The translations under genes and the position numbers were made by a program. The notes below the pieces were generated by a model. It did no database searches. It was not told where the DNA came from and saw only the letters and a list, made by a program, of their open reading frames with translations. From NCBI RefSeq assembly GCF_900156875.1, contig NZ_LT707408.1, positions 1,085,009 through 1,149,008 on the forward strand: a stretch of 64,000 nucleotides of DNA, given 5' to 3'. This document shows positions 8,126 through 23,477 of this stretch, piece after piece. The first letter of the stretch is position 1; the number at the start of each line of letters is the position of its first letter. The stretch is from Robertmurraya dakarensis (GTDB taxonomy: Bacteria; Bacillota; Bacilli; Bacillales; Cytobacillaceae).

Positions 8126-8168
8126 TGTGATGGCTATCACAACCTTTAATTATGTAAGGGTATATAAT
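8126..8168 (+). promoter_or_regulatory. FNR box and promoter of the hemerythrin gene
   Basis: A perfect dyad TGTGA-TGGCTA-TCACA occupies 8126-8141. The consensus -10 TATAAT is at 8163-8168, giving a predicted start point at 8175 and a dyad centre (8133.5) at exactly -41.5. No good -35 is visible, as expected for an activator-dependent class II promoter. Placement also shows that upstream in-frame starts at 8127 and 8130 cannot be used, because they lie inside the operator and ahead of the start point. Confidence 0.75.
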
Positions 8169-8201
8169 AATAGCTATCCAATGTTGAAAGGGGAAAATGT
8201 C

Positions 8202-8729
8202 ATGCAAGGTTGTCCTAGTGGATTATTGGGGAACGAGATTGTTGAACTGTCAGAGGGCTTAGCTCAGTTGAAAAAGGAGCATCCGCCATTACTTGCCCTT
8301 TTATCTGACTTGTTAACACTTTGTAAAGAAGTGGAAGCGCAAGACGATAAGGAAAAGCTATTTTTACAATTGGCTGAAGATGTGAAATCTTTTTCGGAAA
8401 AATTAGAGTATCATTCAACCCGTGAAGAAGACTACTTATTCAGAAAGATGGAAGAATATCTTGGAGTAGGTGTAGGTCCTATAGTCGTGATGGAATATGA
8501 ACATGAAGAAGCGAAAAGAAATATTAATCAATTTTTGGATAATGCGAAAGAAAAAGAGCAGCTTTCAGCGGATGAAATAAAAGAAAATGTTTCCCTCATC
8601 ATAAATGCAAATTATACTTTAGTGAATCACTTTGCTAAAGAGGAAAATGTTCTTTATCCGATGGCTGAAAAAATGCTTTCAAGTGAGGAAAAAGAAGAAT
8701 TAAAACAAAAATTATGTAATGAAAAATAA
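8202..8729 (+). CDS. Hemerythrin-like di-iron protein
   Basis: 175-residue four-helix protein with the spaced His/Glu pattern of hemerythrin domains: KKEHPPLL, EYHSTREEDYLF, MEYEHEEAKRN and VNHFAKEENVLYP. Hemerythrins bind O2 or NO or donate iron for Fe-S repair; the Ric/DUF438-like pattern suggests protection against oxygen or nitric oxide. The start is ATG 8202 with AAAGGGG at 8187-8193; the frame can be read upstream to 8127 but that part is promoter. A short N-terminal MQGCPSG holds one cysteine. It is a single-gene unit between its FNR-type promoter and its own terminator, fitting a role under low oxygen or nitrite stress alongside nrfHA. Exact function unknown. Confidence 0.8.
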   Translation: MQGCPSGLLGNEIVELSEGLAQLKKEHPPLLALLSDLLTLCKEVEAQDDKEKLFLQLAEDVKSFSEKLEYHSTREEDYLFRKMEEYLGVGVGPIVVMEYEHEEAKRNINQFLDNAKEKEQLSADEIKENVSLIINANYTLVNHFAKEENVLYPMAEKMLSSEEKEELKQKLCNEK

Positions 8730-13975: not shown

Positions 13976-13991
13976 TGTGAAATTCTTCACA
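13976..13991. promoter_or_regulatory. FNR-type dyad, proximal, ahead of the ccm-nrf operon
   Basis: A perfect TGTGA-AATTCT-TCACA, 52 bases before the ATG at 14043. A -41.5 start point would require a -10 at 14013-14018 (TACGAA, poor); TAATAT at 14007-14012 fits the hexamer better but gives -35.5. Confidence 0.6.
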
Positions 13992-14042: not shown

Positions 14043-15008
14043 ATGAGAAAAACTTCATATATGACGGGTCTGATTTTAAGCCTGCTGTTAATGTGCCAGG
14101 GAAACATTTATGCAGAGGAGATAAATCCGCTCCAAATGGAGGAACTAACGATTCAAGTTCTGCCAGAGTACACTTATCATCCAAAAGATGAAAAGCAAAA
14201 TCATACACCATTACTCGTTGGATATCATGGATCATTAATAAACAATAGTAAAATTCCACAGAAAGGAAAAATTGAGATCCCCCTTCCAATGCATGAAAAA
14301 AACTTCAAAATTGGCTTCGTTGCTGATTATTCAAAGGATTTAAAAGAAATGTATGAAATTCAGTATGAGTTAGATGAAGAAGCTGGAATTATTTCGTGGG
14401 AAACGTCAGAGGAGATTGCACCAAAAGAATTATATAAATTTGTAATCGAGTACTATACAGACAGCATTAAAGAAGTTAAAGAAGTAAATAAATTAGAGTA
14501 CAGTTTCCAAAGCTTTGCTGATATTGGACTGCTGAACTTGATATTCGTAGAACCGCTAAAAACAGAAAGTTTTTCACTTGAGCCAGCTGCGGAATCACAT
14601 CAGAAAAATAGCTATAACATGAATATGTTTGTTTATCAGGTGCAAGGAATGAAACCAGGTGCCGAGAAGACCATTCAACTTGAATATGAACGTGCTGATG
14701 ATAGAACTACTTTTGAAATGTTGGAAGAAATGGCTGGTTCGTCTGGTGAGAAAGCGGCAGTAAAGAAAAATGAAGCACAAATTCCTGCAGGAAAAACCAT
14801 TGCTGTTGTTGGCGGTGTTTCTGTATCGGCAATCACTTTCCTGTTTATTTTATTGAAGAAACGTTCGAGAAATAGCGGACAGAAACCAAATGGTAAAAAA
14901 GATCCTTATGCTGAACTTAAAAAGGCAAAATTACGTAAGTTGTTAATCGATGGAAGTATAACAGAAGAAGAATATAATCAATTGCTTAATAGATTAGGAG
15001 GAAAGTAG
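14043..15008 (+). CDS. Exported membrane-anchored protein, first gene of the ccm-nrf operon, function unknown
   Basis: 321 residues, no recognised family. An N-terminal signal peptide (hydrophobic residues about 6-24, cleavage near IYAEE) is followed by a roughly 230-residue beta-rich extracytoplasmic domain without cysteines or haem motifs. A single C-terminal membrane segment (about 258-276) and a basic cytoplasmic tail end in ITEEEYNQLLNRLGGK, similar to short SHOCT-like C-terminal modules. RBS AGGAAAGAAAGGAAG precedes the ATG. It is one base from ccmE and first behind the FNR-type boxes, so a role in haem delivery, Ccm complex assembly or nitrite reduction outside the membrane is inferred from position only. 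Confidence 0.7.
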   Translation: MRKTSYMTGLILSLLLMCQGNIYAEEINPLQMEELTIQVLPEYTYHPKDEKQNHTPLLVGYHGSLINNSKIPQKGKIEIPLPMHEKNFKIGFVADYSKDLKEMYEIQYELDEEAGIISWETSEEIAPKELYKFVIEYYTDSIKEVKEVNKLEYSFQSFADIGLLNLIFVEPLKTESFSLEPAAESHQKNSYNMNMFVYQVQGMKPGAEKTIQLEYERADDRTTFEMLEEMAGSSGEKAAVKKNEAQIPAGKTIAVVGGVSVSAITFLFILLKKRSRNSGQKPNGKKDPYAELKKAKLRKLLIDGSITEEEYNQLLNRLGGK

Positions 15009-15009
15009 C

Positions 15010-15447
15010 GTGTCAAAAAACAAGAAAATCTTAACTGGGTTAATTTTGGGGGCAGCTGCTCTAATGATTATGATGTTTTCTTCTATGCCGAGTGCTGGAA
15101 GTAAAGAGATAACCATTTCAGATATTGTTGACAATAGAGATCAATATAAAGGCGATTATATTATGACGCAAGGCCTCTTAAATAAGGATTCTGTGCAATG
15201 GGACGCAGATAAGATTGAATTGGAATTTTCTATTTATGATGAAAACGATGTAACGCTGCCAGTTTTTCATAAAGGGATTAAGCCAGACAATTTTAGTGAC
15301 GACGTCATTGTCATTGTTGAAGGGTTTGTGAATGAAGAGGGTGTTTTTGAAGCAGAAAAAGTACAAACAAAATGTCCTTCAAAATATGAGGGGGAAGATA
15401 TGGAAAATTATGATGTTGAAACACATCAGGAGTTGTTAAATGACTAG
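15010..15447 (+). CDS. ccmE: CcmE, haem chaperone of cytochrome c maturation (cysteine type)
   Basis: 145 residues: N-terminal membrane anchor (about 7-25), then the OB-fold domain (EITISDIVDNRDQYKGDYIM, later VEGFVNEEGVFEAEKV). In Proteobacteria haem binds covalently to a histidine in HxxxY; here the motif is CPSKY, Cys122-xxx-Tyr126, the variant known from archaea and Desulfovibrio. It carries haem from CcmABCD to CcmF on the outer face of the membrane. GTG start with AGGAGG 8 bases upstream; two bases after the preceding stop. System I is not the usual cytochrome c assembly route of Bacillus. Confidence 0.88.
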   Translation: MSKNKKILTGLILGAAALMIMMFSSMPSAGSKEITISDIVDNRDQYKGDYIMTQGLLNKDSVQWDADKIELEFSIYDENDVTLPVFHKGIKPDNFSDDVIVIVEGFVNEEGVFEAEKVQTKCPSKYEGEDMENYDVETHQELLND

Positions 15448-15477
15448 CAAGAATAATACAGATAGGTGGGTTACTCC

Positions 15478-17457
15478 ATGTATGTGATAGGGAACACAGC
15501 GCTTTATCTTGGAATCTTGATATCAATTTATTCTCTCTTTGCCAACATTCTCGGCATAAGGAAGAAGAATAATAGATGGCTTGAAAGTGCTAGAGGCGGA
15601 GTTTTATCATTGGTATTGCTTTCGAGCGCAGCAAGTTTTCTACTGCTTTATATATTAGGAACAAGTCAGTTTCAATATAAATATGTAGCCGCTTATACTA
15701 GTGAAAATCTTCCAATGGTTTACAAGCTAACTGCTTTTTGGGCAGGAAATGCTGGATCACTTCTTTTATGGCTGCTGCTGCTTTGCTTATACGCAGGCTT
15801 TCTAGTGTTTTCGAAGGAAAAGAAAAATCCAATGATGCCGTATGCATCTAGCATTCTATTGCTTAATATTCTATTTTTTTTCCTCGTGATCTTAATGAGT
15901 GCGAACCCTTTTGAGATGTCGGAAACTATTCCAAGTGATGGAAAAGGCTTGAATCCGATGCTTCAGCATCCAGGGATGATTCTGCATCCTGTGACGCTAT
16001 ATCTAGGATACGTAGGTTTGGCTGTACCGTTTGCATTTGCTATTGCGGCACTAATGCTAAAACGTGTTGATGCTGAATGGATTAAATTGACTAGACGATG
16101 GACCTTGGTAGCTTGGTTGTTTTTAACACTCGGGAATATAATCGGTGGCTGGTGGGCCTATCTTGAACTTGGCTGGGGAGGATATTGGGCGTGGGACCCT
16201 GTAGAAAATGCGAGTTTTCTCCCATGGTTAACCGTTTCTGCTTTCCTGCATTCCGTGATGATTCAAGAACGTAAAGGTATGCTAAAGACATGGAATATCA
16301 GCTTGGTGATTCTGTCGTATGTGTTGACCCTGTTTGGAACGTTCCTAGTTCGAAGCGGAATATTAACGAGTGTTCATGCATTTGGTAATGGCAATCTCGG
16401 AACCTATTTCTTAATATTTATGGCTTTTATGGCATTGCTTTCTATCTATGTTGTGATGACAAGGTATCAATTAATTCGTAAAGAAACAAATCCTATTGAA
16501 TCTTATTTTTCAAAGGAAAGTTCGTTTCTATTAAATAATTTGATTTTAGTTGCAGGGGCATTCGCAGTGTTTTGGGGATCCATGTATCCGCTTATTTCAG
16601 AAGTAATTACAGGAACAAAGGTGAATGTTGGACCACCTTATTTCAATAAGGTTATGGCACCAATTATGCTTGGCCTTATTGTGTTGATGGCAATTTGTCC
16701 ATTAATTGCATGGCAAAAAGCAACAGTAGAGAAGTTTTTAAAAAATCTTATCTGGCCTCTTACGGCAGGGATTGTTACTGCTATCGTCCTTATAGCTGTC
16801 GGTGTGAAAGGTATTTTTCCAATCATAGGCTTAGCTTCTGCTGTATTTATGTTTGCAACGCATATTAAAGAGTTCGTAAGTGGAATTAAAGCTCGTATGA
16901 AAGCGACAAAAGAAAATGCTGCCAAAGCATCTCTTAGATTATTACTGAAAAATCAAAGGAGATATGGCGGATATATCGTGCATATTGGTATTGCAGTAAT
17001 AGCAATAGGGGTTATTTCCTCCACTGCTTATCCGAAAGATGTATTACAAACGGTTGAAACCGGTGAAAGTTTTAAAATCGGGCAATATGAACTAACTTTC
17101 AAAGGGCTGACAGAGCATACAGAAAATGGGAATGGAATCGTCGCTGCAACTCTTGATGTTAATCATAAAGGAGAAAGGGTTGGAGAGATAAAGCCAGAAA
17201 AAATATTTTATGAAACATGGCCTGAACCTTCATCGGAAGTGGCGATTAAAACAAATTTAACAGAAGATCTTTACGTAGTATTAAGTTCTTGGGAAGACAG
17301 GGATAAAGTGACACTGCAAGCAAAGGTAAATCCATTTGTCAGCTGGATTTGGACTGGAGGAATGATCATGGTCATTGGTACAGGAATCAGCCTGATTGGC
17401 GGAAGAACATCCCGGGCGTATAAATTAAAGCCAGGAACGCTTAAGGCTGGTGTGTAG
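15478..17457 (+). CDS. ccmF: CcmF, cytochrome c haem lyase subunit
   Basis: 659-residue polytopic membrane protein. The tryptophan-rich haem-handling WWD domain is present (GGWWAYLELGWGGYWAWDP, then VENASFLPWL, near residues 220-250), with conserved outer-face histidines in LQHPGMILHPVTLYLG and the C-terminal HIGIAVIAIGVI segment followed by a periplasmic-type domain. CcmF takes haem from CcmE and ligates it to apocytochrome CxxCH motifs. Start ATG 15478, because AGGTGGG at 15464-15470 gives 7-base spacing; GTG 15466 lies inside it. A single CcmF is encoded although NrfA needs a CxxCK haem attached, a job done by a dedicated NrfEFG set in enterobacteria. Confidence 0.92.
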   Translation: MYVIGNTALYLGILISIYSLFANILGIRKKNNRWLESARGGVLSLVLLSSAASFLLLYILGTSQFQYKYVAAYTSENLPMVYKLTAFWAGNAGSLLLWLLLLCLYAGFLVFSKEKKNPMMPYASSILLLNILFFFLVILMSANPFEMSETIPSDGKGLNPMLQHPGMILHPVTLYLGYVGLAVPFAFAIAALMLKRVDAEWIKLTRRWTLVAWLFLTLGNIIGGWWAYLELGWGGYWAWDPVENASFLPWLTVSAFLHSVMIQERKGMLKTWNISLVILSYVLTLFGTFLVRSGILTSVHAFGNGNLGTYFLIFMAFMALLSIYVVMTRYQLIRKETNPIESYFSKESSFLLNNLILVAGAFAVFWGSMYPLISEVITGTKVNVGPPYFNKVMAPIMLGLIVLMAICPLIAWQKATVEKFLKNLIWPLTAGIVTAIVLIAVGVKGIFPIIGLASAVFMFATHIKEFVSGIKARMKATKENAAKASLRLLLKNQRRYGGYIVHIGIAVIAIGVISSTAYPKDVLQTVETGESFKIGQYELTFKGLTEHTENGNGIVAATLDVNHKGERVGEIKPEKIFYETWPEPSSEVAIKTNLTEDLYVVLSSWEDRDKVTLQAKVNPFVSWIWTGGMIMVIGTGISLIGGRTSRAYKLKPGTLKAGV

Positions 17458-17458
17458 A

Positions 17459-17935
17459 ATGTATTCGAAGCGACTTTTGTTATTAATCGGAATTTTTCTT
17501 CTGGCAATCCCGGTTACTGCCTTAGCGAACAATGATTATAATTCAAAGGAATTTCAATCGATTATTTCCCAGCTGGATATGCAAGGACATGCGAACGATG
17601 AATTATCAACATGTAAAGTGAAGCAAATGTACTTTGAGGAAGTGGCCGAGATGCTTAACAATGGAATGACAGAATCAGAGATTCTGCAATCCTATGTTGA
17701 TGAATATGGCCAAGCCGCTTTAAGAGAGCCATCTCAAGATAAAAGTGGGCTTATCGCTTGGGGGATGCCTTTAGCTGGTCTTGGCGGAGGCTCAGTGATT
17801 GTTGCTTACTGGATAAAAAAGCTTAAAGGAAAAGAAAAAATGAACGAAGAGGGAGACCATCTTAAATGGGAATCTGAAATTGAAAAAGAAATGCTTGAAA
17901 AAATATTTGATGAAGAGCGCCGGAAGCATTTTTAG
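17459..17935 (+). CDS. ccmH: CcmH-like thiol protein with degenerate motif
   Basis: 158 residues: signal or anchor (1-24), a short CcmH/CycL-type helical domain, then a membrane segment (GLIAWGMPLAGLGGGSVIVAYW) and a charged tail. The family's redox motif LRCxxCQ is here LSTCKVKQ, with Cys52 only, so no disulfide within the motif is possible. The following MYFEEVAEMLNNGMTESEIL and YVDEYGQAALREP match the CcmH fold. It should hold reduced apocytochrome for CcmF. The reading frame overlaps the ccmF end if GTG 17450 is used; ATG 17459 is chosen but its ribosome site is weak, implying coupling. Family fairly sure, activity uncertain. Confidence 0.75.
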   Translation: MYSKRLLLLIGIFLLAIPVTALANNDYNSKEFQSIISQLDMQGHANDELSTCKVKQMYFEEVAEMLNNGMTESEILQSYVDEYGQAALREPSQDKSGLIAWGMPLAGLGGGSVIVAYWIKKLKGKEKMNEEGDHLKWESEIEKEMLEKIFDEERRKHF

Positions 17936-17946
17936 GAGCTGAAAAG

Positions 17947-18300
17947 ATGGATTATATATTTTTATTTCTATGTTCAATTATAATATTGACTTGCTTTTAT
18001 TTCGTTGCAGCACCATTCTTTTCGAAGGAAGAAGTAAGTTCTGATAATAGTATTCGAGAAGAGGTTAGTCTTGAATCCGTATACAGAGCTGTGAATGAAC
18101 TCGAAATGGATTTCTTAATGATGAAAATGGAAGAAAAAGACTATCTACAGTTGAAAGAGCAGTATCAACTACTCGCTGCCAATCTAATGAAGAAGGGTCA
18201 TCAACATACAAAGAAAAAATCAGGATTCGATGACAGTGCCCAGGCGGAGCTTGAGATTATGAAAGAGCTGCAAATACTGAGGAAATTTGGAGGAAGGTAA
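17947..18300 (+). CDS. CcmI-like small membrane protein
   Basis: 117 residues: one N-terminal membrane segment (about 3-22) and a cytoplasmic or extracytoplasmic coiled-coil (SVYRAVNELEMDFLMMKMEE then DYLQLKEQYQLLAANLMKKG). This hydrophobic start plus ELExDxxxxKxxxxDY pattern is that of the N-terminal module of CcmI/CycH proteins, without the C-terminal TPR domain. CcmI presents apocytochrome to CcmFH. RBS GGAGCTGAAAAG precedes ATG. Assignment rests on pattern and operon position. Confidence 0.6.
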   Translation: MDYIFLFLCSIIILTCFYFVAAPFFSKEEVSSDNSIREEVSLESVYRAVNELEMDFLMMKMEEKDYLQLKEQYQLLAANLMKKGHQHTKKKSGFDDSAQAELEIMKELQILRKFGGR

Positions 18301-18302
18301 TC

Positions 18303-18644
18303 ATGAACGTTCCTGCATTTCATCCAGAGTGGATTGTTACTTTTTGGTTAACAACACCCGGAATTAATAAAATAGACCCACATCTTGTATTAGCAGTTGT
18401 TTTGGCAGCCATTGGAGTGTATGTGTTTAAAATTAGAGCTGTAAAGACAAATAAAATGGAAAAAGATGAAGAGCAATTTAAGTATCTTTTATCGAAAAAA
18501 AATGTCATTGAAAAAGAATTAAAAGAGTTAGAAAGGCAATGTCTAGAACATTGTATTACAGACGAGCAGTTTAAGAATAAGAAAAGAGAATTGGAAAAGT
18601 ATCTTGTCGTTACGGAACAAGAGCTGCAACAATTCACTTTATGA
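18303..18644 (+). CDS. Membrane-anchored coiled-coil protein of the ccm operon
   Basis: 113 residues: amphiphilic start, one membrane segment (about 26-42) and a long coiled-coil (EKELKELERQCLEHCITDEQ) with two cysteines. Its organisation repeats that of the preceding gene (anchor plus the ERQxxEHxITDEQFKNKKRELE pattern), so it looks like a second CcmI-N-like protein. The two may act as a split apocytochrome-binding module. ATG follows GGAGGAAGGTAATC; its TGA overlaps the ccmA ATG (ATGA). Confidence 0.55.
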   Translation: MNVPAFHPEWIVTFWLTTPGINKIDPHLVLAVVLAAIGVYVFKIRAVKTNKMEKDEEQFKYLLSKKNVIEKELKELERQCLEHCITDEQFKNKKRELEKYLVVTEQELQQFTL

Positions 18645-19363
18645 AAGAGTTGGAAATTATGCTTGAAATAAAGAATCTAACTAAAATACTCTCAGATAAA
18701 TTAATCCTTCGGGGTGTTTCACTGAAACTTAATAAAGGTGAAATTCTGGCCGTTGTCGGTCCAAATGGTGCTGGGAAAAGTACATTCTTTAAGTGTACTG
18801 TTGGACTCCTGCAGCCAAGTGGCGGTGAAATTATCGTTGATGGTGAAATCATTAAAAAGAAATCAGCAGCAACCAGGAAAAAGATTGGTTTTCTAGGGCA
18901 TGAATCCTTTCTTTACAGTACGCTAACCCCACTTGAAAATCTAAGGTTTTATGGGAAGTTATACAAAGTGAAGAGTATTGATTCAAAAGCAAATCAACTC
19001 TTAAAGGAAGTGGGACTGCATTTGTTTAAGGATGTCCCGATTAGGTCATTTTCAAGAGGTATGCTGCAAAGATTATCAATTGCAAGAGTAATGTTAGCAG
19101 ATCCAGAGATCCTTATGCTGGATGAGCCGCATACTGGCTTAGATCAAGATGCAGTTTCACTTCTAAATATGATTATAAAAGAGAAAAAGAATATAGGAAC
19201 ATCTGTCTTGCTTATTTCTCATGATTTTGAACAAGTACAAGCTTTAGCAGACAGTGTCGCGGTTTTAAAAAAAGGAAAAATTATTGATACCGCACCGTTG
19301 AATGCTGATTTAAATTTGGAAAAGATGAAGGATTGGTATTCAAGGGCGGTGTCAGAGGGATGA
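18641..19363 (+). CDS. ccmA: CcmA, ABC ATPase of haem-CcmE release
   Basis: 240-residue ABC ATP-binding subunit. Walker A GPNGAGKST (about residue 46), Q-loop region, signature SFSRGMLQRL, Walker B ILMLDEPHTGLDQD and the switch histidine in LLISHDF are all intact. With CcmB and CcmC it uses ATP to free holo-CcmE from the CcmC complex. ATG 18641 overlaps the preceding stop; ATG 18659 is an alternative start closer to the usual family N-terminus (MLEIKNLTK). Position between CcmI-like and CcmB genes confirms the assignment over a generic ABC protein. Confidence 0.85.
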   Translation: MKELEIMLEIKNLTKILSDKLILRGVSLKLNKGEILAVVGPNGAGKSTFFKCTVGLLQPSGGEIIVDGEIIKKKSAATRKKIGFLGHESFLYSTLTPLENLRFYGKLYKVKSIDSKANQLLKEVGLHLFKDVPIRSFSRGMLQRLSIARVMLADPEILMLDEPHTGLDQDAVSLLNMIIKEKKNIGTSVLLISHDFEQVQALADSVAVLKKGKIIDTAPLNADLNLEKMKDWYSRAVSEG

Positions 19364-20043
19364 AAGATATTCTTTCTGATGCTATTACGATCGCTGGAAA
19401 GGATCTTAGCAATGAATTCAAGACTAAACAAACGATTGGGACAATGGTGATTTTTTCAGCATTAGTGATCCTGGTTTTCAGCTTTGCTTTTGATCCGACT
19501 AATAATACAGTTAAGGCTGTTATTCCTGGCTTAATTTGGGTGATTACTATTTTCTCAGGGACTCTAGGATTAAACCGTTCTTTCGTTTCCGAATTAGAAA
19601 ATAATTGTCTTACTGGGTTAAGATCTGCTCCTATTGATGTAACAAGCATTTATTTAGGGAAGACATTGGCGAATTTTACGCTCGTTACGATTGTGCAGAC
19701 AATTAGTATTCCAGTTCTTTTTCTTTTGTTTAATTATCGGTTTACTGGCTCATTGCTTTGGTTCATTCTAATTGTTTTAAGCGGAACTTTTGGATTTATT
19801 GTAGTTGGTACCTTTTTATCAGCACTTGCAGCAAATGCAAAAAATAGTGAAATGCTATTGCCGGTATTACTTCTTCCACTATTAAGTCCGCTTATGATCG
19901 CAGCGGTTCAGGCAACAACGATCGTGCTCGTGAATGAACAAATCAGTGATGCTATCGGTTGGCTTCAGTTAATGACAGCGTATGATCTGCTGTTCTTAGG
20001 AGCATGTTTTTTATTATTCGAATTCATAATGGAGGGGTCATAA
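19360..20043 (+). CDS. ccmB: CcmB, membrane subunit of the CcmAB transporter
   Basis: 227 residues, six predicted membrane segments. Family blocks: AGKDLSNEFKTKQTIGTMVIF near the start, SELENNCLTGLRSAPID (cytoplasmic coupling loop) and LLPLLSPLMIAAVQAT. The ATG overlaps the ccmA TGA by four bases (ATGA). Partners CcmA and CcmC are adjacent, and the stop overlaps the ccmC start by one base (TAATG), so the ABC proteins are made in step. Confidence 0.88.
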   Translation: MKDILSDAITIAGKDLSNEFKTKQTIGTMVIFSALVILVFSFAFDPTNNTVKAVIPGLIWVITIFSGTLGLNRSFVSELENNCLTGLRSAPIDVTSIYLGKTLANFTLVTIVQTISIPVLFLLFNYRFTGSLLWFILIVLSGTFGFIVVGTFLSALAANAKNSEMLLPVLLLPLLSPLMIAAVQATTIVLVNEQISDAIGWLQLMTAYDLLFLGACFLLFEFIMEGS

Positions 20044-20753
20044 TGAAAGAGGTTTCCAGCTTAATTGACCGTATATTGTTTTATGCACTAGTTCCTTCTT
20101 TCTTTATATTATTATACTTAATTTTCATTTGGTCACCTGTTGAAAAGGTAATGGGTGTAACACAGAAAATCTTTTATTTCCATGTAGGAAGTGCCTGGGT
20201 TGCATTTCTCGCATTCTTTGTCGTTGGGTATTATAGTGTTCGAAATCTAATTAAGCCGAACATGAAGCATTTTATATTTGCTGGTGCTTCAGCAGAAATT
20301 GGTGTTCTTTTCACAACCATTACTTTAATAACCGGAATGATATGGGGAAGAGCAAGCTGGAATACTTGGTGGAGCTGGGAACCCCGGCTCGTTACTACAT
20401 TAATTCTATGGTTTATTTACGTAGCATATTTGTTTATAAGAAAAATGGATGGTTCCTGGGAGAAGATCGCTAAGCTCTCGTCCGTTTTTGGAATTATCGG
20501 CTGTTTAAATGTACCGATTGTTTTCATGGCGATTCGCTGGTGGAATTCAAAGCTGCATCCTATCGTATTTGGTGAAGGAAAAGGTCAATCTGGTGGTGGA
20601 ATTGAACCTGAGATGCTTATAACTCTTCTATTCTCAGTATTTACTATTTCATTATTATACGTTTTCCTTATGAGAAAAGGAGCAGAAATTGAGAGAATGC
20701 GTGTGATTGTCAGGAATCAAAAAAATAAATTGATGAATAAACTTGCAAGTTAA
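20043..20753 (+). CDS. ccmC: CcmC, haem-handling protein
   Basis: 236 residues, six membrane segments. The tryptophan-rich motif GRASWNTWWSWEPRLVTTL sits near residue 105 and the first haem-ligand histidine in YFHVGSAWVAF near residue 47; a second lies in NSKLHPIVF, as in the family. CcmC loads haem on CcmE. RBS GGAGGGG at 20031-20037 serves ATG 20043. It is distinguished from System II CcsA/ResC by length and by the neighbouring CcmA, B, D and E genes. Confidence 0.9.
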   Translation: MKEVSSLIDRILFYALVPSFFILLYLIFIWSPVEKVMGVTQKIFYFHVGSAWVAFLAFFVVGYYSVRNLIKPNMKHFIFAGASAEIGVLFTTITLITGMIWGRASWNTWWSWEPRLVTTLILWFIYVAYLFIRKMDGSWEKIAKLSSVFGIIGCLNVPIVFMAIRWWNSKLHPIVFGEGKGQSGGGIEPEMLITLLFSVFTISLLYVFLMRKGAEIERMRVIVRNQKNKLMNKLAS

Positions 20754-20770
20754 TTTAAGGAGGAAATAAG

Positions 20771-20902
20771 ATGAACTACTTATTTTTAGCAACTTCTGTT
20801 GTATGGGTACTAATCGCAGGGTATGTTGTTATTCTTGGCAAGAGGCAGAAAAAGTTACAAAAAGAAATTTTTCAACTAGAGGAATGGAATTCAGAACAAT
20901 AA
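20771..20902 (+). CDS. ccmD: CcmD, small membrane subunit
   Basis: 43-residue protein too short for most gene finders. A single membrane segment (YLFLATSVVWVLIAGYVVIL) is followed by a basic KRQKK stop-transfer and a short helical tail, the CcmD pattern. CcmD binds CcmC-CcmE and allows release of holo-CcmE. AAGGAGGAAATAAG gives an excellent ribosome site. Its place directly after ccmC is canonical. Confidence 0.85.
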   Translation: MNYLFLATSVVWVLIAGYVVILGKRQKKLQKEIFQLEEWNSEQ

Positions 20903-20918
20903 AAAGCAGGTGAAGAGG

Positions 20919-21425
20919 ATGGGCAAAAAACTTGTACCGATTTTGGTCATCGTTATCGTTGTTGGAGTCTTTGGCTTCCTTATGAATGGCCTGAGCGGGA
21001 AAGCATCCACAACCCCAGGCGATCAAGCAATTGACTTTGAATTAAAGGATATTGATGGAAAGAGTTATAGATTATCAGATTTAAGAGGTCAAACTGTTGT
21101 GTTAAACTTCTTTGCCACATGGTGCCAGCCTTGTATAGATGAAGCACCAGAACTTGAAGCCTTTGGCAATGATTACCCTGATGCAAAGTTAATTATTGTT
21201 GCCAGAGGAGAATCAAAAAAAAGAATGGAAAAGTATATAAATGAGACCGATTCCAAGCTCCTTTATTTACTTGATACGAAAGAGACCGTATCGAAGGATT
21301 ATAGTGTCATTGGGCAGCCTGAAACGATCATTATAAATAAAGATGGGACGATCGATGAAAGATTTACTGGTCCCACAACAAAAGATAATTTGATTAAGTT
21401 AATAGAAGAAAACGTCTCTCTTTAG
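20919..21425 (+). CDS. CcmG/ResA-like membrane thioredoxin
   Basis: 168 residues: N-terminal anchor (about 4-23), then a TlpA-type thioredoxin fold with WCQPC (FFATWCQPCIDEAPE) and the cis-proline region VIGQPETIIINKDG. It reduces the CxxCH cysteines of apocytochromes outside the membrane, receiving electrons from CcdA-type proteins. AGGTGA at 20908-20913 selects ATG 20919. It follows ccmD directly, hence CcmG by position, while sequence style is like Bacillus ResA. Confidence 0.85.
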   Translation: MGKKLVPILVIVIVVGVFGFLMNGLSGKASTTPGDQAIDFELKDIDGKSYRLSDLRGQTVVLNFFATWCQPCIDEAPELEAFGNDYPDAKLIIVARGESKKRMEKYINETDSKLLYLLDTKETVSKDYSVIGQPETIIINKDGTIDERFTGPTTKDNLIKLIEENVSL

Positions 21426-21431
21426 CCATGT

Positions 21432-21454
21432 TTAAAACACAAAATGTGTTTTAA
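21432..21454. promoter_or_regulatory. AT-rich dyad between ccmG-like gene and nrfH
   Basis: Perfect ten-base arms TTAAAACACA (21432-21441) and TGTGTTTTAA (21445-21454) around AAA. No T-tract follows, so it is not a good terminator. It may be an operator, a processing or stabilising hairpin, or a weak attenuator in the only sizeable gap of the operon. Confidence 0.5.
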
Positions 21455-21486
21455 TAGATTAATTTTTTGGCAGGGGAGGTGATGAA

Positions 21487-21996
21487 ATGTTAAAGAAAAA
21501 GAAGCTGTGGTTATTCATAGGAGTGTTTGCGGGAATTATTCTATCTGTTGTAACCATTAAAACGTTTGCTTATACGGATAGTGCTGAGTTTTGCAGCAGC
21601 TGTCATATTATGACGAATGTACATGATTCCTTTTCAGAATCTACACATGCCAACTTAGCCTGCAGTGATTGCCATTTGCCACATGATACAATGGCAAATA
21701 AGTTATACAATAAGGCAAAAGCAGGATTGGGCCATGTGTATTTTAATACACTCGGTGAAGATAAAATTCCCGATGTACTGCACGCAACAGATAATTCAGA
21801 AGAAATTATCAATGATAACTGCATAGGCTGTCATGAAAGTACGTTAGACAATGTATCACATGATGCAAAGGAAAGCTGTTCAAGCTGTCATGAGGCCGTA
21901 CCACATGGAAATGATTTTAAGAACGAGGATTTTTTCCAGCCTGCTAAGCCAGGTGAGCTACTAGAAAATAAGGGAGGTACAATGAATAATGGCTAG
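21487..21996 (+). CDS. nrfH: NrfH, tetrahaem quinol dehydrogenase subunit
   Basis: 169 residues: one N-terminal membrane helix (about 7-25) and four haem-binding motifs, CSSCH (36), CSDCH (59), CIGCH (112) and CSSCH (131). This is the NapC/NirT-family NrfH pattern: it takes electrons from menaquinol and passes them to NrfA on the outside of the cell membrane. GGGGAGGTGATGAA provides a strong ribosome site. The stop overlaps the nrfA start by eight bases. Confidence 0.93.
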   Translation: MLKKKKLWLFIGVFAGIILSVVTIKTFAYTDSAEFCSSCHIMTNVHDSFSESTHANLACSDCHLPHDTMANKLYNKAKAGLGHVYFNTLGEDKIPDVLHATDNSEEIINDNCIGCHESTLDNVSHDAKESCSSCHEAVPHGNDFKNEDFFQPAKPGELLENKGGTMNNG

Positions 21997-23422
21997 GAAT
22001 TTTCAATGGGTTTCCTTGCTACTAGCTGCTATCGTTCTTATCGTTTCTGGCTGTTCTAGCTCTGATAGTGAAAAAGCATCAGCTGATACAGCAACAACCG
22101 GACTTGATAAAAATGAAATCAGCAATGAAGCATTCAAGGATATATTCCCGCTTCAATACGAGAGTTATATGAAAAACGAAGAAATGGAAGATACGACATA
22201 CAGCGGATCTGTGAAACGCAGTAAGTTCGATCATGATAAAGAACCATACTTACCAATCCTCTTCAATGGATATGGGTTTGCAATTGAGTATAATGAAGAT
22301 CGCGGGCATATTTATGCTAACGAAGATATTCGTGCAATTGCAAGGATCAATGATAAATCTGTCGGTTCTTGTCTTACGTGTAAATCAACTGCAGTTCCTC
22401 ATTTAATCGAGGAAATGGGTGATGATTACTGGGGTGGAAACTTTAATGAAACCATCTGGCCAGCAGCAGAAGCAATGGGACATTCACCAATCGGTTGTTC
22501 TGACTGTCATGATCCAGAAACAATGGACTTGCGAGTGACACGTCCGAGTTTCATTAAAGCCATGGAATCACAAGGAATTGATATGTCTAATCCAACAAAA
22601 AATGATATGCGTAATTATGTTTGCGGCCAATGTCACGTAGAATATTATTTTGCTCCTGAAAATAGTGAAGTAACATTCCCATGGGCAAATGGCTTTAAAC
22701 CGGAAGATATGTATGAATACTATGAAACGGTTGCTAAAGATCGTGGATTTAATCAAGACTGGATCCATAATGTTTCAGGAACGCCAATTCTAAAAGCGCA
22801 GCATCCTGACTTCGAAACGCATTTAGAAGGACCACACGGTCAAGCAGGTGTAACATGTGCCGATTGTCATATGCCATATGAGAGGGTTGATGGTAAGAAG
22901 AAAATTACTTCCCACTGGTGGACCTCACCGCTTAAGACAATGGAAGAGTCTTGCGCTACTTGCCATAGCAATCGGGATTTAGAGGACCTTGAAGAAAGGG
23001 TATTAACGATTCAAGAAACTCATATGGAACAACTCCATGCTTCAGAGGATATTTCGATAACGGCGCACTATTATATTAATAAAATGATCACATCTGGTGT
23101 AAGTGAAGAAAAGATTAAAGAAGCACAGGAACATGTCCGAAAAGGTCAATGGTTCTGGGATATTGTAGCAGCAGAAAGTGCAGCTGGTTTCCATAATCCT
23201 CAAGGAGCTATGGACACGCTTAAGCTTTCATCAGATGAGTCAAATAAAGCGATTAAGCTTGCAACTGAAGAGTTAGTCAAAAAAGGTGTAAGTATAGAGG
23301 AACTAGATAAAGAGATAGAAAAAGTGAAGAAGGCTGTATACGAGGAGACAGATAATTTCAAGAAGAAAGATCATGCAACAAATGATTATTTCCCTCCACA
23401 GCAGCCTGCTCCAAAAAAATAA
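21989..23422 (+). CDS. nrfA: NrfA, pentahaem ammonia-forming nitrite reductase
   Basis: 477-residue lipoprotein (lipobox IVSGC, Cys22) that reduces nitrite to ammonium with six electrons. Five haem motifs are visible: CLTCK (128, the lysine-ligated catalytic haem), CSDCH (170), CGQCH (212), CADCH (290) and CATCH (322). Catalytic-site blocks include VCGQCHVEYYF and KAQHPDFETHLEGPHG. Extracellular lipid anchoring suits a Gram-positive without periplasm. AGGGAGGT at 21971-21978 serves ATG 21989. Together with NrfH it gives dissimilatory nitrite reduction to ammonium, or nitrite and NO detoxification. Confidence 0.95.
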   Translation: MARNFQWVSLLLAAIVLIVSGCSSSDSEKASADTATTGLDKNEISNEAFKDIFPLQYESYMKNEEMEDTTYSGSVKRSKFDHDKEPYLPILFNGYGFAIEYNEDRGHIYANEDIRAIARINDKSVGSCLTCKSTAVPHLIEEMGDDYWGGNFNETIWPAAEAMGHSPIGCSDCHDPETMDLRVTRPSFIKAMESQGIDMSNPTKNDMRNYVCGQCHVEYYFAPENSEVTFPWANGFKPEDMYEYYETVAKDRGFNQDWIHNVSGTPILKAQHPDFETHLEGPHGQAGVTCADCHMPYERVDGKKKITSHWWTSPLKTMEESCATCHSNRDLEDLEERVLTIQETHMEQLHASEDISITAHYYINKMITSGVSEEKIKEAQEHVRKGQWFWDIVAAESAAGFHNPQGAMDTLKLSSDESNKAIKLATEELVKKGVSIEELDKEIEKVKKAVYEETDNFKKKDHATNDYFPPQQPAPKK

Positions 23423-23433
23423 TAATTTGATAG

Positions 23434-23477
23434 GAAAACACTGTGCATTTAGTAGTTATGTACAGTGTTTTCTTTAT
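23434..23477 (+). terminator. Terminator of the ccm-nrf operon
   Basis: Eleven-base arms GAAAACACTGT (23434-23444) and ACAGTGTTTTC (23462-23472) with a 17-base loop, followed by TTTATT. Confidence 0.7.

Follow-up and report, generated by a model that had tools for sequence, protein, structure and literature searches.

One review places the Bacillota under System II cytochrome c maturation (PMC9145763), and another, from 2025, notes that B. subtilis uses System II and lacks nrf genes (PMC12285233). According to the latter, NrfHA complexes use System II, and the attachment of their CXXCK haem is unknown except in the case of Wolinella NrfI. A synthase specialised for CXXCK has been described before, in the cases of NrfI and E. 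coli NrfEFG (PMC3601427, PMC12285233). System I* (Allen 2006, via PMC3601427) is described as having a cysteine CcmE, as occurring also in Firmicutes and as including CcmH in about a third of cases. The linkage of ccm genes to nrfHA was already noted in 2012, in a sentence on Bacillus (Schinkia) azotoformans LMG 9581 that lists ccmEFHABC, or six of the eight genes of System I (Heylen and Keltjens 2012, PMC3475470).

The operon described here lies in a 64,000-nt stretch of Robertmurraya dakarensis DNA (the window) and is of the same kind as the B. azotoformans cluster (L207). The gene order differs, with nrfHA first (5′ of ccm) in B. azotoformans and last in the window operon, and two helper proteins termed P1 and P2 below, the form of CcmH and a dedication to CXXCK do not figure in that single-sentence account (PMC3475470). 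A CPSKY motif in CcmE is common to System I* and the window operon, which adds a ResA-like CcmG, P1 and P2, a CcmH without CxxC and a host that also has System II. The E. coli NrfEFG lyase is likewise of the CcmF/CcmH type, encoded alongside NrfA and believed to act on CXXCK (PMC12285233, PMC3601427); in contrast to it, the window operon supplies an exporter and a chaperone of its own, lacks a TPR protein NrfG, and has NrfH rather than NrfBCD as redox partner. Wolinella NrfI (CcsBA-type) is also a dedicated CXXCK synthase beside nrfHA (PMC12285233), but belongs to System II whereas the window set is System I. The small split resBC beside clostridial nrfA is an apparent NrfI counterpart.

The ccm-nrfHA operon

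Thirteen open genes on the same strand, overlapping or closely spaced, were read between 14043 and 23422 (Table 1). Judged from the sequence, this ccm-nrfHA unit is real and looks like a single operon with an FNR-type box in front and a terminator-like hairpin behind. The first-pass annotation had described a one-direction run of ccm and nrfHA genes ending in a terminator, and this description holds: every gene it named is open and on the same strand, and the inverted repeat is present. The first gene, P1, was not named there. A consensus terminator scanner did not list the inverted repeat, and promoter and terminator matches in the window were no more numerous than in shuffles. The palindrome TGTGA-N6-TCACA, which we take to be the Bacillus Fnr consensus, has two perfect matches in the window, one of them the box before P1; sites with at most one mismatch number six against 2.19 expected. 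Such boxes precede 42 of 56 nrfA-labelled loci but 9 of 65 other loci. The perfect box is compatible with anaerobic control of the operon.

Table 1. Features of the ccm-nrfHA operon (positions in the window)
Feature	Position	Strand	Remarks
FNR/CRP-type palindrome TGTGA-N6-TCACA	13976..13991	+	-67 to -52 from first ATG
P1	14043..15008	+	unrecognised family; precedes ccmE
ccmE, haem chaperone, cysteine type KCPSKYE	15010..15447	+	PF03100 82 bits
ccmF, haem lyase	15466..17457	+	PF16327 230.7 bits, PF01578 131.8 bits
ccmH, form without CxxC motif	17450..17935	+	PF03918 45.6 bits
small TM protein, earlier 'ccmI-like', motif NELEMDF..K	17947..18300	+	kept in relatives' clusters
P2, short form, TM and coiled coil	18303..18644	+	TIGR03142 21.3 bits, under cut-off 29.3
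ccmA, haem-exporter ATPase	18641..19363	+	TIGR01189 142 bits, cut-off 131.6
ccmB	19357..20043	+	PF03379 107.7 bits; ORF open from 19333, start putative
ccmC	20043..20753	+	PF01578 92.5 bits; ORF open from 20004, start putative
ccmD	20771..20902	+	TIGR04391 (CcmD family) 56.5 bits, cut-off 24; kept in relatives
ccmG position, ResA-like thioredoxin, CQPC	20910..21425	+	PF00578 88.3 bits
nrfH, tetrahaem quinol oxidase	21487..21996	+	PF03264 53 bits (NapC/NirT-type)
nrfA, pentahaem nitrite reductase, lipobox-like start	21989..23422	+	PF02335 413.9 bits
terminator-like inverted repeat	23434..23472	+	15-nt arms, 93% complementary, 9 nt between, then TTTATT

The Ccm set and NrfHA

Pfam or NCBIfam model cut-offs were passed by CcmA, B, C, D, E, F and H, NrfH and NrfA. 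A complete System I, as first annotated, is borne out for CcmA-F and CcmH at this level but fails in that CcmH lacks CxxC, CcmG is ResA-like and a TPR CcmI is missing; a nine-of-nine set is ruled out by the features of CcmH and CcmI. The cysteine of CcmE aligns with the cysteine of the CcmE structure 2kct and with the histidine of KHDENY in CcmE 1sr3, so that by alignment it replaces the haem-binding histidine, as in System I*. Every CcmE read from the compared loci has CP at this place. The operon thus encodes a Cys-CcmE, System I*-like Ccm set of a Bacillota type, with a predicted function in haem attachment.

CcmF matches the CcmF structure 6zmq (E 5.4e-111) and falls short of the cut-offs of the NrfE-type models TIGR00353 (nrfE/ccmF; 477.5 against 569.05 bits) and TIGR03145 (470.5 against 927.3), as well as of NF007691 (368.4 against 394 bits). 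CcmC scores 119.5 bits with TIGR01191 (cut-off 186). The protein at the CcmG position scores 108.6 bits with the ResA model NF002854 (cut-off 170) against 51.2 with the dsbE model TIGR00385 (cut-off 123.15). Although CcmH passes PF03918, it has one cysteine outside the signal peptide (LSTCKVKQ), and it found no relatives among solved structures at E 5. Pfam gave no TPR match (CcmI or NrfG) in the operon. NrfA carries CLTCK and four CXXCH motifs and is paired with a NapC/NirT-type NrfH, which reaches 117 bits with the equivalog model TIGR03153 (cut-off 134.2).

The paralogous proteins P1 and P2

Two genes had been annotated as ccmI-like. The first, the small TM protein, has no family, with no Pfam match over cut-off and no NCBIfam match. 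Residues 30-105 of the second match TIGR03142, the model of the CcmI N-terminus, under its cut-off; this protein lacks a TPR and is better described as a truncated paralogue of P1, the short form of P2. Full-length P2 (about 330 aa) is a beta-ectodomain/TM/coiled-coil protein, and alignment of the P1 family with full-length P2 by hhalign gave a probability of 99.1 (E 1.8e-18). P1 itself has a signal peptide, a beta-sandwich ectodomain, one TM helix and a short helical tail (AlphaFold2 model: pLDDT 85.3, pTM 0.65). No Pfam or NCBIfam model exceeded its cut-off with P1, SHOCT at the tail reaching 17.2 of 27 bits. Foldseek returned best E values of 1e-8 for P1 and 5.5e-6 for P2, with query TM-scores up to 0.43; since the matches, among them aminopeptidase N and ribophorin I, cover just the beta-sandwich plan, a function of P1 or P2 drawn from these folds was rejected.

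P1 is a conserved member of the cluster. It precedes ccmE in 78 of the 80 named loci (the best 80 out of 563 relatives). Of 12 Neobacillus-like loci in which nrfHA has no ccm genes next to it, 10 retain P1 in front of nrfHA. In the phylum sample P1 was sought in 80 chosen genomes of 378 (45 of the 81 with CcmE and 35 without). It is conceivable, though less likely than not, that P1 and full-length P2 form a new paralogous, membrane-anchored beta-sandwich pair of Gram-positive System I that takes the role of the Gram-negative TPR protein CcmI/NrfG and presents the apocytochrome, P1 being a substrate-side adaptor that chooses the client of the lyase, here CXXCK NrfA. Such an adaptor would explain why P1 is kept with Neobacillus nrfHA after loss of the adjacent ccm genes, a different ccm cluster taking over. 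Both paralogues are candidates for new components of a machine whose list of parts was considered complete.

System II and distribution across genomes

The first-pass annotation had expected an ordinary System II elsewhere in the genome and named its absence as a refutation, and System II is indeed present: ResB and ResC lie side by side on contig C11 (frames of 539 and 395 aa), and two DsbD_TM matches of CcdA size represent CcdA homologues. As five CBB3-type cytochromes c, ordinary System II clients, are also encoded elsewhere, two haem-attachment systems coexist in this genome, whose only CcmE is that of the nrf operon.

The arrangement recurs in many relatives with NrfHA and includes P1 and P2, neither of which clearly matches a curated family. 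In a sample of the order (397 genomes), NrfA and CcmE occur together in 30 genomes, NrfA alone in none, CcmE alone in three and neither in 364 (Fisher p 5e-42, the genomes not being independent). In 28 of the 30 the two genes share a contig and are no more than 15 kb apart; the earlier annotation had called for a count of this kind in the Bacillaceae. ResB is found in 32 of the 33 CcmE-bearing genomes. In a Neobacillus-like genus, CcmE is present in 40 of the 41 genomes with NrfA, the exception (G820) being 91% complete in 490 contigs; nrfA and ccmE lie within 15 kb in 0 of the 40, 21 pairs being on different contigs. Of 61 genomes of this genus, 13 encode CcmE but no NrfA.

In the phylum sample, 38 of 67 strong-NrfA genomes have CcmE and 29 do not. 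The 67 exclude 24 of 91 genomes with a best match of about 120 bits or less, taken as other multihaem proteins; one of these, G536, may have a broken NrfA. A ccm cluster adjoins nrfA in 13 of the 38, including the window genome and five ccmABCE-resBC hybrids. A small resB-resC adjoins nrfA in 13 of the 29 CcmE-less genomes (resC only in L149), and no Ccm or Res gene was seen around nrfA in 14. Both counts cover one nrfA stretch per genome, with short ones such as L158 (4.6 kb) and L159 (5.8 kb) among them; certain genomes carry a second nrfA. Thirteen of the 14 loci without a Ccm or Res gene encode CXXCK, the other (G582) having a broken frame, so CXXCK is not always accompanied by a linked synthase. 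The motif was found in 40 of 40 NrfA sequences of one set, in the 22 nrfA-bearing loci among the 80 named ones and in 12 of 12 further sequences. A contrast search gave no NrfA with CXXCH at haem 1 among the sequences read, which comprise the phylum loci apart from those of seven CcmE-bearing genomes (G486, G508, G517, G507, G438, G483 and G590).

The 80 named loci are no census, as they are the best 80 of 563 relatives of one CPS-form peptide pattern, with CPT-form CcmE outside its reach. Among them, 49 of the 58 without nrfA in view have a two-CXXCH frame (diheme cytochrome) beside the cluster. One nrf-type cluster (G016) lies beside a five-CXXCH cytochrome and has no NrfA. Since related clusters of the same family are found next to a diheme cytochrome and also where NrfA is absent, System I in the Bacillaceae is not for NrfHA alone. 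The unlinked Neobacillus genes, CcmE without NrfA and the diheme neighbours together indicate that such clusters can serve other clients. The earlier claim of a machine dedicated to NrfHA keeps the co-occurrence of CcmE with NrfA in its favour, while these findings speak against its generality.

Proposed role and alternatives

Probably, an FNR-type-controlled operon makes NrfHA together with a dedicated Cys-CcmE System I machine, while ResBC makes the ordinary cytochromes. CcmABCD would export haem and load CcmE; CcmF, with CcmH, P1 and P2, would join the haem to apo-NrfA and perhaps to NrfH; the ResA-like protein, supplied by CcdA, would keep the apoprotein cysteines reduced; and ResBC would continue to make ordinary cytochromes. 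The need for the Ccm set would lie in the CXXCK motif at the NrfA active site, since ordinary ResBC is not known to act on this motif. The presence of CcmE in every NrfA genome of the order sample, mostly beside nrfA, supports a dedicated machine, most simply one for the lysine-motif haem.

In a narrower form, Ccm would attach just the CXXCK haem and ResBC the eight CXXCH haems of NrfHA, by analogy with E. coli, where the work is split between NrfEFG and Ccm: E. coli Ccm reportedly needs no NrfEFG to attach haem at the four CXXCH motifs of NrfA, and NrfF, a paralogue of CcmH, is reported to be dispensable (PMC3601427). Such a division is a realistic prospect, at somewhat less than an even chance, as ResBC is present and most nrf-linked clusters, unlike the diheme-linked ones, have lost the CcmH CxxC and the P2 ectodomain. 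However, the operon encodes a full haem exporter and chaperone, and related clusters beside a diheme cytochrome presumably act on CXXCH motifs. Moreover, four nrf-linked clusters (L082, L085, L089 and L092) have a Cys-rich CcmH as their only form, so that CxxC loss is no rule for NrfA, and others (e.g., L086, L094, L102 and L215) have both forms. The first-pass annotation had assigned all nine haems of NrfHA to the Ccm set; it may make haem 1 alone. The 13 CXXCK loci without a linked synthase and a review in which System I is favoured at low haem availability (PMC9145763) would suit a scheme in which ResBC attaches all nine haems, including that of CXXCK, and System I just raises anaerobic output or haem affinity. 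This is unlikely, as the tie of NrfA to CcmE in the order sample is stricter than a matter of capacity predicts and a published System II host uses a special CXXCK synthase (PMC12285233, PMC3601427).

The diheme neighbours of nrfA-less loci and the Neobacillus-like genomes with CcmE alone might point to a general second System I that serves many anaerobic cytochromes, its nrf linkage being historical. We regard this as rather improbable for the window genome, whose single CcmE sits in the nrf operon; most nrf-linked clusters are also set apart by separate CcmF groups, a distinct CcmH/P2 form and an FNR-type box. Movement of ccm and nrf genes on a mobile block without functional need would account for the patchy occurrence of NrfA in the order sample, but is very improbable: the side of ccm on which nrfHA is found differs between CcmF groups (3′ in one, 5′ in another), distant Bacillota again have ccm or resBC next to nrfA, the neighbours scanned (CNNM/CorC-type and MarR-type genes before the operon, a Clp-type ATPase behind) include no mobile genes, and the G+C content of the operon resembles that of the whole window.

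On these data, ammonifying Bacillales keep a second, different haem-attachment machine. The ccm-linked, resBC-linked, hybrid and unlinked nrfA loci form a natural series for testing what enables a synthase to act on CXXCK, and B. subtilis, with System II and no nrf genes, is a ready test bed.

A CcmF tree, proposed in the first-pass annotation as a way to the donor lineage, names no donor: the nearest non-Bacillales rows are themselves Bacillota (L192, L191) in a tree without other phyla. When one origin of the nrf linkage was compared with several, a single clade of the nrf-linked Bacillales CcmF proteins (with G016 and without L267) was not rejected (p-AU 0.248).

The ccm-nrfHA operon and its host genome

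The operon comprises 13 open frames spaced by overlaps or short gaps. Domain scans back its ccmE, ccmF, ccmH, ccmA, ccmB, ccmC, ccmD, nrfH and nrfA genes and place a ResA-like thioredoxin in the ccmG position. NrfA carries the haem motif CLTCK followed by four CXXCH motifs and has a lipoprotein-like start, as described for other Firmicutes NrfA in the available text of PMC3475470. An inverted repeat with 15-nt arms lies 3′ of nrfA and precedes TTTATT. Of the named relatives in the compared sets, Robertmurraya siralis is the closest (CcmE 75%, CcmF 79%, NrfA 85%).

Coordinates of the features discussed (L and G numbers in the text denote individual loci and genomes)
Feature	Position	Strand	Comment
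ccm-nrfHA operon	14043-23422	+	
P1	14043-15008	+	first gene of the operon
P2, short form	18303-18644	+	paralogue of P1
FNR-type box of the operon	-67 to -52 relative to the first ATG		perfect TGTGA-N6-TCACA
Other FNR-type box	8126-8141		perfect
Hemerythrin-domain gene	8127-8729		

The first-pass annotation placed this machinery next to an ordinary System II elsewhere in the genome (5.48 Mb in 11 contigs, the window being internal to a 1.7 Mb contig), and System II is indeed present. ResB and ResC genes lie side by side on another contig, adjoined by a frame reading as ResA, and two DsbD_TM proteins of CcdA size are encoded. There are five CBB3-type cytochrome matches above cut-off and a single CcmE. 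A Cytochrom_C_asm search gives five matches, namely the window CcmF and CcmC, two pieces of one 395-aa ResC, and a 300-aa frame which we take to be HemX. In the order sample ResB accompanies CcmE in 32 of 33 genomes, the lone miss being G184 (90% complete, 6% contamination).

Association of NrfA with haem attachment genes

Among the 397 genomes of the order sample, NrfA is found in 30 and CcmE in 33, including all 30 with NrfA; G016, G120 and G273 have CcmE without NrfA. Fisher values on this co-occurrence overstate independence, since the genomes are kin. The adjacency of ccm to nrfHA, central to the first-pass annotation, holds in 28 of these 30 genomes (same contig, at most 15 kb apart), the exceptions being G168 with separate loci and G276 with a cluster close to a contig end, and breaks down in the Neobacillus-like genus of G168. 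There, 40 of 61 genomes have both genes, one NrfA only, 13 CcmE only and seven neither, and none of the 40 pairs lies within 15 kb (19 at 394-505 kb on the same contig, 21 on different contigs).

In the wider phylum, ccm accompanies nrfA in 13 of 38 CcmE-bearing genomes, one being the window's own and five resBC hybrids, and ccmE is not near nrfA in the other 25. A small resB-resC pair accompanies nrfA in 13 of 29 CcmE-less genomes (L138, L142, L143, L147, L149 with resC only, L152-L157, L159 and L165). These genes, of ~340-440 aa (resB) and ~260-285 aa (resC) in clostridial genomes, are possibly a split counterpart of Wolinella NrfI. The stretch fetched around nrfA holds no Ccm or Res gene in 14 of the other 16 CcmE-less genomes; in G740, also CcmE-less, a larger resB-resC lies ~4 kb from nrfA. 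The neighbours of nrfA in L139 are ccmB, ccmC and a short, 589-aa CcmF-like gene (CcmF_C 26.7 vs a cut-off of 28.7 bits), and CcmE was not found in its genome, G414.

Seven clusters of clostridial Bacillota (L169, L177-L180, L188 and L189; families f69 and f118) have ccmA-ccmB-ccmC-ccmE followed by resB-resC with no ccmF in view, an arrangement that seems to combine System I haem delivery with a System II synthase. CcmE and ResB are Pfam-confirmed in L177 and L188, and nrfA adjoins the cluster in L169 and L177-L180.

Two kinds of ccm cluster

A CcmE alignment retrieved 80 named loci, with nrfA in view in 22. These 22 have a CcmH without the CxCGCG motif, preceded by a Cys-rich CcmH in L209, L215, L218 and L244, and P2 is short (107-134 aa) in 20 of them, L267 having a full-length P2 and none being detected in L216. 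Four nrf-linked clusters of the order set have the Cys-rich CcmH alone (L082, L085, L089, L092). The other 58 loci, mostly from Neobacillus and kin, generally combine a Cys-rich CcmH with a P2 of ~330 aa unless cut by a contig end, with a two-CXXCH frame in view in 49; the frame scanned, that of L071, is identified by Pfam as a diheme cytochrome c. Exceptions are L194 and L219, which are contig-cut nrf-type clusters, and L208 and L210, which differ. Three groups are separated in the CcmF tree: one with nrfHA 3′ that includes the window (support 99/97), the diheme clusters (98/90) and one with nrfHA 5′ (83/96), in which G016 is nested. CcmF of L267, though nrfHA is 3′, is placed beside the diheme group (96/98).

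The diheme-type clusters L220, L226, L230 and L269 have no ccmABCD. Three of their genomes also hold an nrf-linked cluster with ccmABCD (L226; L230 with L198; L269 with L197), and none was seen for L220. CcmF of L226 is the same as that of L074, the second cluster of G220 (the first is L073). These clusters look to share the exporter of the nrf-linked cluster, as E. coli NrfEFG shares that of Ccm. A reduced cluster of ccmE, F, H, C and D, in which ccmA and ccmB were not found, stands behind a five-CXXCH cytochrome in L079 (G016) and likewise in L208 (Calidifontibacillus erzurumensis), probably one genome. An FTR1-type iron permease is encoded 5′ of the cluster in L079, and NrfA was not found in G016. 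The ccm clusters L087 (G120) and L096 (G273) have no multihaem gene in view; a CopC/CopD protein is encoded behind L087.

P1 and P2

No Pfam or NCBIfam model scores above cut-off on P1, in the window copy or in the relatives scanned. P1 lies before ccmE in 78 of the 80 named loci (not in L208 or L212); the order-set clusters L079, L087 and L096 likewise showed no P1 next to ccmE. Among 80 genomes picked from the wider phylum, 21 of the 45 with CcmE and 1 of the 35 without it encode full-length P1, so that about half of the CcmE genomes tested do not have it; CcmE-less G487 has a short match to the P1 tail only. It is immediately 5′ of ccmE in 20 of the 21 and heads a ccmF-ccmH cluster in G703.

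In the predicted model of P1 (pLDDT 85.3), a beta-sandwich ectodomain is followed by a TM helix and a helical tail. Full-length P2, likewise without a model above cut-off, is predicted to have the same plan (pLDDT 81.7, pTM 0.50) and by hhalign it is a homologue of P1 (probability 99.1, E 1.8e-18). In the window, P2 is the short form and retains the TM helix and coiled coil only. Its earlier label as ccmI-like has a basis, since this part resembles the CcmI N-terminal part, under the model's cut-off; the TPR part is absent.

In the Neobacillus-like genus, 12 nrfHA loci were fetched from the 41 genomes with NrfA. Ten of them carry a P1 of reduced length (264-285 aa) immediately 5′ of nrfH and no ccm genes (L274 and L275 do not), as does L070. 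In the NrfA tree, the seven Neobacillus-like sequences included are nested within a group that also contains nine window-type rows (98). From these loci and this nesting, an ancestor of the genus most likely had the window arrangement, lost the ccm block and kept P1, another ccm cluster supplying System I. This probable retention of P1 with nrfHA suggests that it may serve as an adaptor.

Proposed route of haem attachment to NrfA

In the proposed mechanism, CcmABCD would export haem and load Cys-CcmE, from which CcmF and CcmH, with P1, a small TM protein and the P2 remnant, would pass it to apo-NrfA; the ResA-like protein, supplied by CcdA, would reduce the apoprotein. The window CcmH, being without CxxC, cannot be a CxxC redox protein, which fits the dispensability for NrfA of E. 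coli NrfF, a CcmH paralogue, in the available part of PMC3601427. The CXXCK motif would most simply account for a second system, because CXXCK needs a special synthase in published hosts, NrfEFG or NrfI (available parts of PMC3601427 and PMC12285233), and ccm or small resB-resC genes stand beside nrfA in the phylum genomes counted above. No strict rule of linkage follows, given the genomes with distant ccmE and the CcmE-less genomes blank in the stretch fetched.

The nrfHA-ccm linkage itself was previously known, one sentence in the available text of PMC3475470 reporting it for B. azotoformans, and Cys-CcmE has been published for Firmicutes (PMC3601427, same portion). The literature matches listed (for several searches the best 10-20, with subscription papers outside) include no other account that treats Bacillales System I together with NrfHA, and the accessible portions of PMC4429474, PMC12285233, PMC9145763 and PMC8840924 hold no further treatment. 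P1 and P2, nameless and hence offering no term for a literature search, are possibly a new component.

An FNR-type box before the operon

The operon is likely to be under anaerobic control, judging from the FNR-type box before it. Boxes with at most one mismatch were counted in the 350 bp before each locus. Where nrfA is in view, 42 of 56 loci have one (15 perfect), seven of these 56 loci being nrfHA without ccm; the other loci have one in 9 of 65 cases (4 perfect), and random 350-bp segments of these loci in 111 of 3630 (38 perfect). The counts are not independent because at least eight genomes are present in both collections (L205/L083, L207/L093, L208/L079, L211/L091, L218/L102, L219/L097, L226/L074, L244/L094). 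The box is present in 26 of the 28 rows with nrfHA 3′ as in the window, L201 and L267 being without it; the remaining 12 of the 14 misses fall among the other 28 nrfA-labelled rows. All four perfect boxes among the 65 belong to contig-cut nrf-type clusters (L194, L219, L095, L097). The window's only other perfect box overlaps a hemerythrin-domain gene at its start, and genes of this class are often linked to NO or iron-sulphur repair.
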